Origin: Flavobacterium salmonis
Lineage (GTDB): Bacteria > Bacteroidota > Bacteroidia > Flavobacteriales > Flavobacteriaceae
Reading direction: 5' to 3'
DNA length: 64,000 nucleotides
Assembly: GCF_903819435.1 (NCBI RefSeq)
Contig: NZ_CAIJDP010000068.1
Coordinates: forward strand, 1-64,000
Below the pieces are notes generated by a model. It saw nothing but the letters and a program-made list of their open reading frames with translations. It was not told the origin of the DNA and did not search any database. Shown piece by piece: positions 27,608 to 31,940 of this stretch. The position numbers were made by a program, and so were the translations under genes. The stretch's first letter is position 1. Each line of letters starts with the position of its first letter.

Positions 27608-29023
27608 TTAAAACTTATTTTCAACTTCTGCGGCTTTCAGCATCAAATAATGCAAATCAGTATTTTTTACAAAAGGTTTTAAAAGTTCGCTTCCCGGACC
27701 AAACATTGCCAGTTCAACATAATCGGCAGAGTGATCCATGCTAATCCAGCCTACCGAATTTATTTTTCCCTGCATTTCTGCAAAAGCTTTATAAGGCAGT
27801 TTTTTGTAATTATACAAACCATCTTCTTTATGCAATCCATCATAATATCCTAAGACTGTTTTTGCTTCTTCATCAGAAACCGAATGGCCATTTGCTTTTT
27901 CAATAATTTCTTTTACTTGCGAAACAGAAGATTCTGGTTTTATCTGATTCAGAATCCATTCGTTCGTCTGAGTATATTTTTGGATACTGTCAAAATTATC
28001 GTTGGCATCTTTACCGTAAATAATTCCAGGATTTGCATTTCCGTGATCTGTGGTTATAACAACCAAAGTTTCTTTGTCTTTCTCAGCAAAATCTATTGCA
28101 GCTTTTACAGCTTCATCAAATTCAATCTGATCCTGTATCAAACCTGCAATATCATTGCCATGTGCTGCCCAATCCACTTTTCCGCTTTCAATCTGCAAAA
28201 CAAACCCCTCCTTATGATTTTTCATTCTGTCAATTGCCTTTTGGGCCATTTCAGCAAGACCTGGAATTGTCTTTTTTAAATTTTCATCACTATTTCTATC
28301 CACATAATACGGAAGCCCGTCATCTGCAAATACGCCCAAAATTGGCTGCGTACTTAAAGCTGAATTCATTTCAGATCGCGTTTTTACAACCTGATATCCC
28401 TTTGATTTAAAAGCAGAGAACATGTCTTTTTTATCTTTCCTTAATGCCGGGCTAAAATAGTTTGCACCACCTCCCATCATAACATCAAAACCAAGTTCTA
28501 AATACTGTTCGGCAATATCCTCCTGTGCATTCCTGCTTTTACTGCTTACGCAAAAGCCCGCTGGAGTAGCGTGCGTTATAGGAACGGTGGTCACACAGCC
28601 TGCCATTTTTCCTGCCTTTTTAAATTTTTGCCAAATGGGTAAATGAGGTTCTCCATTCGGACTTATATTCAGTACACCATTATTGACTCTAAAACCACCT
28701 CCCCACGAAGAGCTTGCTGCAGATGAATCTGTTACTATAGAACTCGCAGAGGCTGTATCCATTAAAGCCCTTGAAACCCTGTTATCTTTGTATAACTGAA
28801 TCCAGTTTGAGCCTTTGCCCGTTTTTCTGTTTAGAAATAAATCGGTCATGTTTAATGTTCCCGTGCTCATCCCGTCACTAACCAATAAAATAATATTTTT
28901 TGCTTTCTTATTTTTATTAGTAGTTTCTAAATCTAAAATATTGGCCGAACCCTGTAAAGGATTTATCATTACTGCCCCGATTGTAAATAAAGAGCCATTT
29001 TTAAAGAACTTTCTTCTGTTCAT
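27608..29023 (-). CDS. Alkaline phosphatase, Tat-type signal
   Basis: From the Met at 29023 the protein has 471 residues. It starts MNRRKFFKNGSLFTIGAVMI, a twin-arginine signal, so it is folded before export. The active-site Ser lies in VTDSSAASSSWGGG, with metal-binding motifs LLVSDGMS near the start, GSKVDWAAHGND-like QIESGKVDWAAHGN and VVITTDHGNANPG. This is the PhoA family, releasing phosphate from esters outside the cytoplasm with zinc and magnesium. The frame extends to 29047, but eight extra residues would spoil the Tat signal. Downstream neighbour in transcription order is a convergent terminator; upstream is the COG0523 GTPase. Confidence 0.9.
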   Translation of the reverse strand: MNRRKFFKNGSLFTIGAVMINPLQGSANILDLETTNKNKKAKNIILLVSDGMSTGTLNMTDLFLNRKTGKGSNWIQLYKDNRVSRALMDTASASSIVTDSSAASSSWGGGFRVNNGVLNISPNGEPHLPIWQKFKKAGKMAGCVTTVPITHATPAGFCVSSKSRNAQEDIAEQYLELGFDVMMGGGANYFSPALRKDKKDMFSAFKSKGYQVVKTRSEMNSALSTQPILGVFADDGLPYYVDRNSDENLKKTIPGLAEMAQKAIDRMKNHKEGFVLQIESGKVDWAAHGNDIAGLIQDQIEFDEAVKAAIDFAEKDKETLVVITTDHGNANPGIIYGKDANDNFDSIQKYTQTNEWILNQIKPESSVSQVKEIIEKANGHSVSDEEAKTVLGYYDGLHKEDGLYNYKKLPYKAFAEMQGKINSVGWISMDHSADYVELAMFGPGSELLKPFVKNTDLHYLMLKAAEVENKF

Positions 29024-29110
29024 TATTATTTTATTTAAGTATTTCAAAGATAATTAATAACCCGTAAATCAAAAGCACTATAAGGATAGTACGGTAAACA
29101 TAACTTTTTT

Positions 29111-30331
29111 TTAATCTACAAGGTTACCTGCAGTTCTGGGAATTGGAAAAGGATCATTCTCAGAGAAAAAACCATCCTGCAGGTCCATAATTTCGTCAGC
29201 CGTGCAAAGACTGTTTTCTAATTGTTTTCGCATTTCTTTTTCATTGATAGAAAATCCAATAAATACTAATTCGTTAAGTCTGTCACCAAAATCAAGTGTC
29301 CAGCGTTCTTCTATAATATCCTGGTTTTCGGCAAAGCTTTGATAATTCATTCGCTCTGCCAATGGCATACTTGCCCACCAAACACCTGCGCTTTCCGCTT
29401 TTATAGAACCTCCAGCCTGACTCCAGTTTATGGCTTGTTCGGGACGGGATGCCATCCAGAACAAACCTTTACTCCGAATAACAGAGGATGGAAAATCCTT
29501 CGAAATAAAATCCCAAAATCGATACGGATGAAAAGGTTTTTCGTTTCTAAAAACAAACGAACTAATGCCATATTCTTCGGTTTCAGGTGTATGGATACCT
29601 TCCAGTTCGCGTATCCATCCTGCTGAATTCTCAGCCTCTTCGTAATTAAATAATTCTGTATTGATAATTTCGTTTGGATTGACTTTCCCTAATTCAGAAG
29701 AAATAATTCTGGCTACAGGATTCAGTTTTTTAATAGACGCTTTTAGGGCTTTCAATTGGCTTGGGGTAACAAGATCGGTTTTATTGAGGATAATTACATT
29801 GGCAAATTCTACCTGATCCATCAAAAGATTTACAATCGTTCGATTATCATTTTCGATGTTGGTTGCCTGAATATCTTCCAACGTTTGGGCAGAACCAAAA
29901 TCTTTAAAAAAATTCAGGGAATCTACCACCGTTACCATAGTGTCTATGTAGCTAAAACGGGATAAATCAATATTCTCATCCTCGTTTACAAAAGTAAAAG
30001 TCTGGGCTACAGGAATAGGTTCGCTGATGCCGGTACTTTCGATTAGCAGATAATCAAATCGGTTTTCTTTGGCCAGTTTCTCTACCTCAACCATCAAATC
30101 TTCCCGAAGCGTGCAGCAGATACAGCCGTTGCTCATTTCTACCAGTTTTTCTTCGGTGCGGGAAAGTGTATTTTCTGCTTTTACCAAATTCGCATCAATA
30201 TTTACTTCGCTCATATCGTTTACGATTACAGCAACTTTCAATCCTTCTTTGTTATGCAGAATATGGTTTAGCAGGGTCGTTTTTCCGGCTCCCAGGAATC
30301 CTGATAATACAGTTACAGGTAATTTTTTCAT
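29111..30331 (-). CDS. COG0523 (CobW/ZigA-type) GTP-binding metallochaperone
   Basis: 406 residues: P-loop [13 protein letters not shown] near residue 12, the metal motif [11 protein letters not shown] (CxCC) near 70, and the guanine motif LNKTDLV near 180, followed by a CobW C-terminal domain ([16 protein letters not shown] region). COG0523 GTPases deliver zinc or other metals under scarcity. It lies 63 bp before the alkaline phosphatase, a zinc enzyme, and downstream of a small His-rich protein with Zur-type operators, so a zinc role fits. No clear promoter box was found in its own upstream region. Confidence 0.9.
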
Positions 30332-30684: not shown

Positions 30685-31035
30685 TTATATAATCTGGAAT
30701 ATTGGCGGACCCCGAAGAGAGAAAAGGCTTCCTTTAAAAAAAGAGGAATGTTGGTAAAAGAAAAATGAAGTTAAAGTGTTTACTGCACTATTTTTATGAA
30801 AGTGTAAAACATAAAAATTAGTAATTGTAAACAAAATGAAGTTAAAATCACAAGTAAAACATTTTTCAGAAATACTATGACTATGGGTTACTTCTGCTTT
30901 ACTTTTAGAATAATGACAATGTTTCTCTGCCAGTTGTTCAGTATGATGTTCATAAGAATGTATGGACTGAAACAGTATTGAAAACAATACTGCCATAGAC
31001 AGAAACACATTGATTATGATAAATTTCTTTTTCAT
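30685..31035 (-). CDS. Small His/Cys-rich membrane protein, predicted zinc-regulated
   Basis: From the Met at 31035 the protein has 116 residues: an N-terminal membrane helix or signal (FIIINVFLSMAVLFSILFQS), then HSYEHHTEQLAEKHCHYSKS and THSHSISEKCFTCDF, with seven His and a CxxC pair, then a second hydrophobic segment and a basic end (LRGPPIFQII). The His/Cys cluster would face the periplasm and could bind zinc or copper. Its promoter carries two Zur-like palindromes. I know similar small proteins in Bacteroidota ahead of metal-linked TonB receptors, but have no characterised homologue. The frame extends to 31056, but 31035 fits the signal. Confidence 0.7.
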   Translation of the reverse strand: MKKKFIIINVFLSMAVLFSILFQSIHSYEHHTEQLAEKHCHYSKSKAEVTHSHSISEKCFTCDFNFILFTITNFYVLHFHKNSAVNTLTSFFFYQHSSFFKGSLFSLRGPPIFQII

Positions 31036-31112: not shown

Positions 31113-31170
31113 TGCAATAGTGTTGCAAATATAGAGATCTTATTTTTAAATGCAATAAAGTTGCATTTAA
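31113..31170 (-). promoter_or_regulatory. Promoter with two Zur-like operators
   Basis: On the minus strand a TTG (-33, at 31153-31155) is followed after 19 bp by TATATTTG (-7, at 31126-31133), the consensus Bacteroidota promoter. Two palindromes lie over these boxes: TGCAATAAAGTTGCA (31151-31165, extended to perfect 10-bp arms over 31146-31170) and TGCAATAGTGTTGCA (31113-31127), identical at 13 of 15 bases. A bound repressor would cover both boxes. This is the layout of Zur or another Fur-family control. Confidence 0.75.
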
Positions 31171-31211: not shown

Positions 31212-31463
31212 TTGATGAAACTAAAATTGAGCAATATTTCACAGCTTTATAAACTTTTTAAGGAAGTGAATCATATGTCAAATGCAAAAACTAATATCCA
31301 AATTTTCGACCGCTTCGGAAAATTATTAAAACAAATCAGTCCTCTTGATATTGGATGGGATGGTACCTATAATAACACGAAAATGCCTGCTACTGATTAC
31401 TGGTATGTTATTAAGTTAGAAGACAATCGCATTTTTAAAGGCCATTTTACTTTAAAACGATAG
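31212..31463 (+). pseudogene. T9SS type B sorting-domain remnant
   Basis: The 83-codon frame encodes the second half of a gliding-motility-type C-terminal domain: NIQIFDRFGKLLKQISP, GWDGTYNNTKMPATDYW and the closing FKGHFTLKR. Complete domains begin about 30 residues earlier with an FTPN-type segment and sit at the end of large secreted proteins. Here the preceding sequence is replaced by unrelated residues and no exported protein precedes it. It is therefore a leftover 3' end. Confidence 0.75.
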
Positions 31464-31538: not shown

Positions 31539-31546
31539 GTCTTTCG

Positions 31547-31940
31547 TGGAGTCGCCGGGAATCGAACCCGGGTCCAAACAAGCAACTAAAGAGCTTTCTA
31601 CACGTTTATTTCCTGATTAGATTTTCGATGTTAAGCAAGGCCAGAAACAGCCACTCAACACTTATCTTCTTAATTTTCAAAATCCACCCGAAGCTCATGG
31701 AAATCTAGGTTTATTTTTACGGTTCCCCTAAACAGAACGCCACAAACCAAGGCTTTCAAGGAGAATCCAGCTTCCCTACCTTGTAGGGACGTGGCTAATC
31801 TTACTATAATTCGGATTATGCAGCTAAAGCGTAGTTATTTTCGCCGTGTAAAAGTGTAAGATCTTATATTTACGAGCAAGGTCTCAATGCTCGACGTGCT
31901 TACTTTTCAATTCGACTTGCTGTCAAAACCAGTCGACCCC
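31547..31940 (-). ncRNA. ssrA: tmRNA (ssrA)
   Basis: The RNA starts GGGGTCGACTGGTTTTGACAG and ends with the tRNA-like part CCCGGGTTCGATTCCCGGCG followed by ACTCCA. The acceptor arm pairs GGGGTCG with CGACTCC, the discriminator is A, and CCA is not encoded. The tag frame GGC GAA AAT AAC TAC GCT TTA GCT GCA TAA (31816-31845) gives GENNYALAA. tmRNA with SmpB rescues stalled ribosomes and marks the unfinished protein for proteolysis. The length, 394 nt, is normal for the phylum. Confidence 0.96.

Follow-up and report, generated by a model that had tools for sequence, protein, structure and literature searches.

The window (the whole stretch analysed here, 64,000 nucleotides from the start of Flavobacterium salmonis contig NZ_CAIJDP010000068.1) carried on its minus strand, in the direction of reading, the gene of a 115-aa His/Cys-rich protein with an N-terminal hydrophobic stretch (30685..31032, ATG at 31032), the gene of a COG0523 GTPase resembling the zinc metallochaperone ZigA (29111..30331; NF038288, 559.5 bits), and an alkaline phosphatase gene recognised from sequence (27608..29047), which was possibly co-transcribed behind the ZigA-like gene. 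The GTPase fell under the ZigA cut-off (600 bits) despite a full-length match (positions 1 to 390 of 390, E 3.5e-168), and hence it was designated ZigA-like only. The gap between the His-rich and ZigA-like genes measured 353 bp, and no TAnnTTTG box was found in it before the ZigA-like gene. On the other side of the promoter, an 83-aa ORF on the plus strand (31212–31463) scored 34.3 bits against the CHU_C domain, a type IX secretion signal, and a tmRNA gene (31546–31940, minus strand; tag peptide GENNYALAA) was located just past the promoter.

The His/Cys-rich gene had been placed downstream of the promoter by the original prediction, which was drawn from the letters of this stretch, and it was recovered there. 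Its product matched no Pfam family above cut-off; it belonged to an unnamed family of 113- to 117-aa proteins that displayed a conserved H/C motif (CxxC in 31/31 rows of the alignment) and a conserved C-terminal end. Relatives were present in 142/150 genus genomes, and family members preceded TonB receptor genes at most loci seen.

The promoter of the His-rich gene was composed of a minus-strand -33 element TTG (31153..31155), a 19-bp spacer, and a -7 element TATATTTG (31126..31133), as had been read originally. Two predicted operators, both exact sequence matches, were overlaid on these elements: (i) the upstream operator TGCAATAAAGTTGCA (31151..31165, given on the plus strand) covered the -33 box, and the TTG made up letters 11–13 of this operator, within its inner arm, and (ii) the downstream operator TGCAATAGTGTTGCA (31113..31127, given on the plus strand) was fused to the -7 box, with the last two bases of TATATTTG being the first two of the operator and TTTG running into the site. 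The order along the minus strand was upstream operator (31165–31151), 23 bp, downstream operator (31127–31113), and His-rich gene (ATG at 31032). The two palindromes were identical at 13/15 bases with centres 38 bp apart, in agreement with the original prediction; of the arms proposed there, five bases each stood up (TGCAA-N5-TTGCA), while the sixth pair, T/G, was not palindromic. The sigma-A -7 box TAnnTTTG of F. psychrophilum spans -12 to -5 in the available text of PMC9723704, and from this placement of the -7 box the transcription start was predicted at about 31121 (minus strand), within the downstream operator and near its centre.

The promoter-fused motif and five predicted promoters

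When two mismatches were allowed, the window contained 10 palindrome matches versus 9.08 expected; degenerate look-alikes thus carried no weight and were rejected as a signal. The exact form TGCAA-N5-TTGCA was found twice versus 0.24 expected per 64 kb, and a close exact pair arose in 0/300 simulated windows (first-order Markov). The bare exact palindrome was not enriched across the 5.86-Mb genome (15 sites versus about 22 expected from the window Markov rate scaled up; the reversed control gave 2 sites but differed in composition). Five of these 15 sites were located at predicted-regulon promoters and 10 elsewhere (8 of the 10 inside ORFs of >200 aa), and with these counts the bare palindrome was rejected as a genome-wide marker. 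The signal consisted of the promoter-fused motif TANNTTTGCAAYNNNRTTGC, pairing, and conservation, not of the palindrome alone. The fused motif had five exact matches in the genome and none in the reversed control; allowing one mismatch added five places, no more than in the reversed control (5), and these were left out of the site count. Summed among the matches listed, it had 85 matches versus 8 controls in 121 genus genomes and 43 matches versus 5 controls in 199 family genomes, and exact copies were present in only 44/121 and 33/199 genomes, respectively.

The five exact matches in this genome marked five promoters: (i) on contig C45, a zur-like gene facing MerC–FAD oxidoreductase–TonB receptor–thioredoxin-like (the latter two genes named by eye); (ii) on contig C49, another zur-like gene facing MerC–COG0523 GTPase–MoaB–ThrRS–DCD–HisI–FolE, the same operon continuing with Fur-like–LCIB-type carbonic anhydrase–unknown–QueD; (iii) the TonB receptor gene next in the C49 run; (iv) on contig C60, His-rich paralogue–ABC ATPase–TonB receptor–DUF3526 permease; and (v) the His-rich/ZigA-like/phosphatase unit of the window. 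Operator pairs were found at four of these five TANNTTTGCAAYNNNRTTGC promoters (spacing 37, 37, 37, and 38 bp), the upstream operator of the C49 zur pair having two end mismatches, and the C60 promoter had a single operator. The latter was linked to zinc by the His-rich paralogue and the TonB receptor only and was the weakest of the five. The ThrRS gene of the C49 operon had a second genomic copy (60% identity), and its FolE gene had two further genomic copies (58% and 60% identity). The Fur-like gene inside this operon was the third Fur-family gene observed (L020:7114–7539, 41.4 bits), and it was followed by that of the LCIB-type carbonic anhydrase (L020:7536–8291; PF18599, 179.4 bits).

Judged by gene content, the arrangement matched that of a Zur system, with predicted operators both at zinc-starvation genes and at the system's own zur-like gene. 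The genome scan that the original prediction had proposed spoke in its favour, the fused motif marking both zur-like loci and the C49 operon.

The 30 best His-rich loci fell into three groups: two operators in the three closest (the window included), one operator at the -7 position (≤1 mismatch) in 15 loci before an ABC ATPase gene, and no operator in the other 12, before another TonB receptor type. The closest relatives of the window protein, in G349 (65% identity) and G303 (62% identity), had the double-operator promoter flanked by the His-rich gene and, in the opposite direction, by a zur-like gene, with a full consensus match in the downstream operator and one mismatch in the upstream operator; the proteins encoded by these zur-like genes shared 83% and 79% identity with the C49 protein and 60% and 65% with the C45 protein, respectively. 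The stretch between the operators was also conserved in the closest orthologous promoters, and in G303 the operator spacing (40 bp) and the promoter spacer (21 bp) were lengthened together. Unlike G349 and G303, the window had no zur gene on the side opposite the His-rich gene; the CHU_C ORF, located on the side where the relatives carry zur, was probably a remnant of a larger gene. The window promoter would descend from, or share ancestry with, the zur/His-rich divergent promoter of these relatives. A ZigA relative was found inside the MerC operon in 11/80 named Flavobacterium loci, and a relative of the window alkaline phosphatase (58% identity) was found behind MerC in one zur locus (L237); the window unit was tied to the regulon by these occurrences at zur loci.

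Paired operators beside zur-like genes in relatives

An exact operator pair was found in 9/299 family genomes, with no reversed-control pair. Seven of the nine pairs were spaced 36–39 bp, and six of these seven were located at a zur-like gene or a MerC–FolE operon, the seventh being that of the window. The other two were set aside: the pair of L038 (G174) lay in a repeat-like stretch and was probably due to chance, and that of L033 (G019), spaced 54 bp, was excluded from the 36–40 bp class.

Zur-like loci were also collected by protein search. The named Flavobacterium loci had a pair in 80/80 cases (36 bp in 61 and 37 bp in 19), and the -7 box was perfect in 79 and matched at 5/6 positions in one; these loci were the best 80 of 428 relatives, closely related and with 76 distinct upstream stretches, and so they did not amount to 80 independent cases. 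The family loci at ≥135 bits (all listed at this score except the C49 gene of the present genome, G000, itself paired) had a pair in 36/45 (Markov control 16/9000), spaced 38 bp in 21, 39 bp in 9, 37 bp in 4, 36 bp in 1, and 50 bp in 1 (L100, probably a wrong pairing); the remaining loci had a single site (≤2 mismatches; 8/45) or none (1/45). Below 135 bits, 25 of the listed matches were covered. Outside the family, a pair was found in 2/4 loci at ≥135 bits at the order level (40 bp apart) and in one locus at the class level (37 bp apart), and a single site was found at all five high-scoring loci of a more distant family (f23). Once near-copies were removed, both sets together with the phylum loci gave pairs in 121/137, spaced 36–40 bp except for the one at 50 bp.

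Reading away from zur, TA..TTTG was matched at 5 or 6 of 6 positions and in a fixed register in 36/36 family pairs, and reading towards zur, the same register gave no perfect box and a 5/6 match in one; the informative letters in these counts were TA and TT, the TG of TTTG and the TTG being operator letters by definition. The spacing varied by 4 bp, i.e., more than a third of a helical turn, while the register was constant, which argues that the spacing would be set by the 17- to 21-bp promoter spacer and not by dimers in rigid contact. As neighbours, a MerC-like gene was present in 20 and FolE in 13 of the 30 best family loci, along with ZIP, ZigA-like, MoaB, DCD, and carbonic-anhydrase relatives at single loci each. 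An NRAMP transporter gene and a DtxR-type regulator gene were observed directly behind zur at L019:5368–7984.

The role of the upstream palindrome could be read in another way: the repressor would bind, but only the downstream palindrome would matter, and the upstream one would mimic an operator system since TTG serves both as the -33 box and as one half of an operator arm. The single -7 operator of the C60 His-rich promoter, the single operator at the 15 His-rich promoters (of 30 compared) that precede an ABC ATPase gene, and the occurrence of one site only at 8/45 zur loci would suit this reading, which was nevertheless considered unlikely: the upstream operator was present in 80/80 named loci, and its 15-bp palindrome was retained far outside the TTG. 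Its positions 2–6 and 10–14 were conserved at ≥91% in the 121 pairs, a figure that arose partly by construction because the pairs were picked with ≤2 mismatches per site.

Candidate regulators and the metal sensed

Two zur-like Fur-family genes were found in the genome, on C45 and C49, and the regulator, a small and divergent member of the Fur family, contained two CxxC pairs and a stretch rich in His. The C45 protein scored 30.4 bits against Pfam FUR (PF01475), above the cut-off of 23.1, and the C49 protein, 67% identical to it, scored 20.3 bits (E 0.00063), below that cut-off. The two CxxC pairs (C87, C90, C122, and C125) were invariant in 7/7 aligned regulators, five of which had been located through the paired DNA pattern and hence were not independent, and the others through protein searches; these four cysteines are presumably the structural zinc site of the family. 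Both proteins scored far below the cut-off of the NCBIfam Zur equivalog NF008646 (28.9 and 31.6 versus 167 bits), and the regulator was therefore named Zur-like only. Sequence-profile matches in PDB were led by Fur 9ire (46.2 bits), followed by E. coli Zur 4mtd (40.5 bits) and 3mwm (39.5 bits). A fold search on the predicted structure put 3mwm, 7vo0, and 2o03 on top, all titled zinc regulators; the structure model was weak (mean pLDDT 61.6, poor second half), and the search with it backed a Fur-type fold only.

A sister Fur-family subfamily (about 111–126 bits; L117–L135) mostly had TGCGA-type sites (TGCRA-N5-TYGCA), and its sequences point to a likely shift in operator specificity. There were 18 GA-labelled loci in all, 16 of them within one clade of 18, and L121, L131, L132, and L133 of this subfamily had two sites 52–54 bp apart. 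The regulator tree required 12 operator-label changes versus a shuffled mean of 28.0 (0/200 shuffles as low), and with few columns and long branches it said only that operator types cluster.

The Zur-regulated genes reported by Haas et al. 2009 (PMC2770081) include those of COG0523, HisI, ThrRS, QueD, FolE2, and gamma-class carbonic anhydrase. COG0523 genes, HisI/ThrRS/QueD paralogues, and folate-synthesis and carbonic-anhydrase genes likewise stood behind the sites found here. The present system differed from those regulons, as far as the available text of that paper describes them, in three respects: (i) its folate and anhydrase genes encoded FolE (type I) and an LCIB-type enzyme in place of FolE2 and the gamma-class enzyme; (ii) its host was Flavobacterium, whereas that text concerns beta- and gamma-proteobacteria and is without Bacteroid or Flavobacteri; and (iii) its operator, TGCAA-N5-TTGCA, occurred in pairs and was joined to promoter elements of the Bacteroidota kind. 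The first difference slightly lowered the weight of the zinc reading and raised that of another metal.

The same operators and the same Fur-family regulator could serve in sensing manganese or nickel (Mur- or Nur-like). For manganese, an NRAMP–DtxR pair, typical of this metal, followed zur in 80/80 named Flavobacterium loci; for nickel, the operator had the same half-site and the same five-base gap as the Nur box tTGCaa-N5-ttGCAA of Streptomyces coelicolor (PMC3919588, available text), a regulator that senses nickel. This explanation was nonetheless judged quite improbable. The C49 operon carried ThrRS, HisI, FolE, QueD, carbonic anhydrase, and COG0523 genes; in both G213 and L086 the MerC–FolE operon had a ZIP-family gene next to it; the search of about 1.5 kb at the 29 other-genus loci of L070–L099 gave no NRAMP relative; and zinc regulators topped the fold search. 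The scan at the five promoters, which covered part of the genes of the five units, recognised no gene for nickel transport or an Ni-enzyme, nor any other nickel gene. The neighbour genes other than NRAMP–DtxR, as annotated from their sequences, speak for zinc. Confinement of the motif to iron or manganese genes would have told against the original prediction; it was not seen, since the motif fronted the COG0523/ThrRS/HisI/FolE/QueD operon, the NRAMP–DtxR genes beside zur notwithstanding.

Proposed mechanism and its place among known systems

Autoregulatory Zur-type operators, at which each dimer would cover one of the core promoter elements, were considered a highly probable explanation of these findings. 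When zinc is sufficient, one dimer of a Zur-type repressor, encoded by one or the other of the two zur-like genes, would sit on each palindrome; the -7 box together with the start point would be covered by the downstream dimer and the -33 TTG by the upstream dimer, and this coverage would keep RNA polymerase off. Upon zinc starvation, release of both operators would allow production of the His-rich protein and the ZigA-like GTPase, and perhaps also of the alkaline phosphatase. The core promoter elements would thus be built into the operator half-sites themselves. Zur-type repression as put forward originally was supported, although the evidence then offered for it (the palindrome, the promoter overlap, and the His/Cys-rich protein) was thinner than the conclusion. 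An origin of the palindromes by chance or as a structural feature (hairpin or terminator), which would fit the expected frequency of degenerate versions and a genome with no enrichment of bare exact sites, was regarded as negligible, because the pair appeared in 0/300 simulations and was conserved at a fixed promoter register across genera, the conserved register with the -7 box ruling out a hairpin or terminator role.

The autoregulatory Zur-type arrangement resembled that of E. coli Zur (PDB 4mtd; PMC6103462) in the placement of two repressor dimers, here predicted, on one promoter region. In the available text of PMC6103462, one or two E. coli Zur dimers occupy a single box, cooperatively at znuABC; unlike this, two separate palindromes 36–40 bp apart and with variable spacing were found here. 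A wider generalisation appeared plausible on balance: in Flavobacteriaceae, and in three or more genomes from other families of the order and class, the operator would be merged with the core promoter, two separate dimer clamps would be used, the spacing (36–40 bp) would track the promoter spacer (17–21 bp) instead of protein contact, and the sister regulator would have shifted from TGCAA to TGCGA.

Among the papers listed in the literature searches (with subscription papers mostly outside their scope), none was seen to report a Zur operator in Flavobacterium. The available texts of a Riemerella ZntR paper (PMC11960050) and of an F. johnsoniae study of ribosomes (PMC9976891) refer to Zur in general terms only, and that of a Porphyromonas Fur paper (PMC6613475) concerns a different subfamily. 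The present analysis supplies a concrete candidate Zur-type operator, together with five promoters predicted to form its regulon in a Flavobacterium genome. It illustrates how the unusual promoter of Bacteroidota can accommodate a repressor site within its own letters, and it connects, as a prediction, a widespread unnamed His/Cys-rich protein to zinc scavenging.
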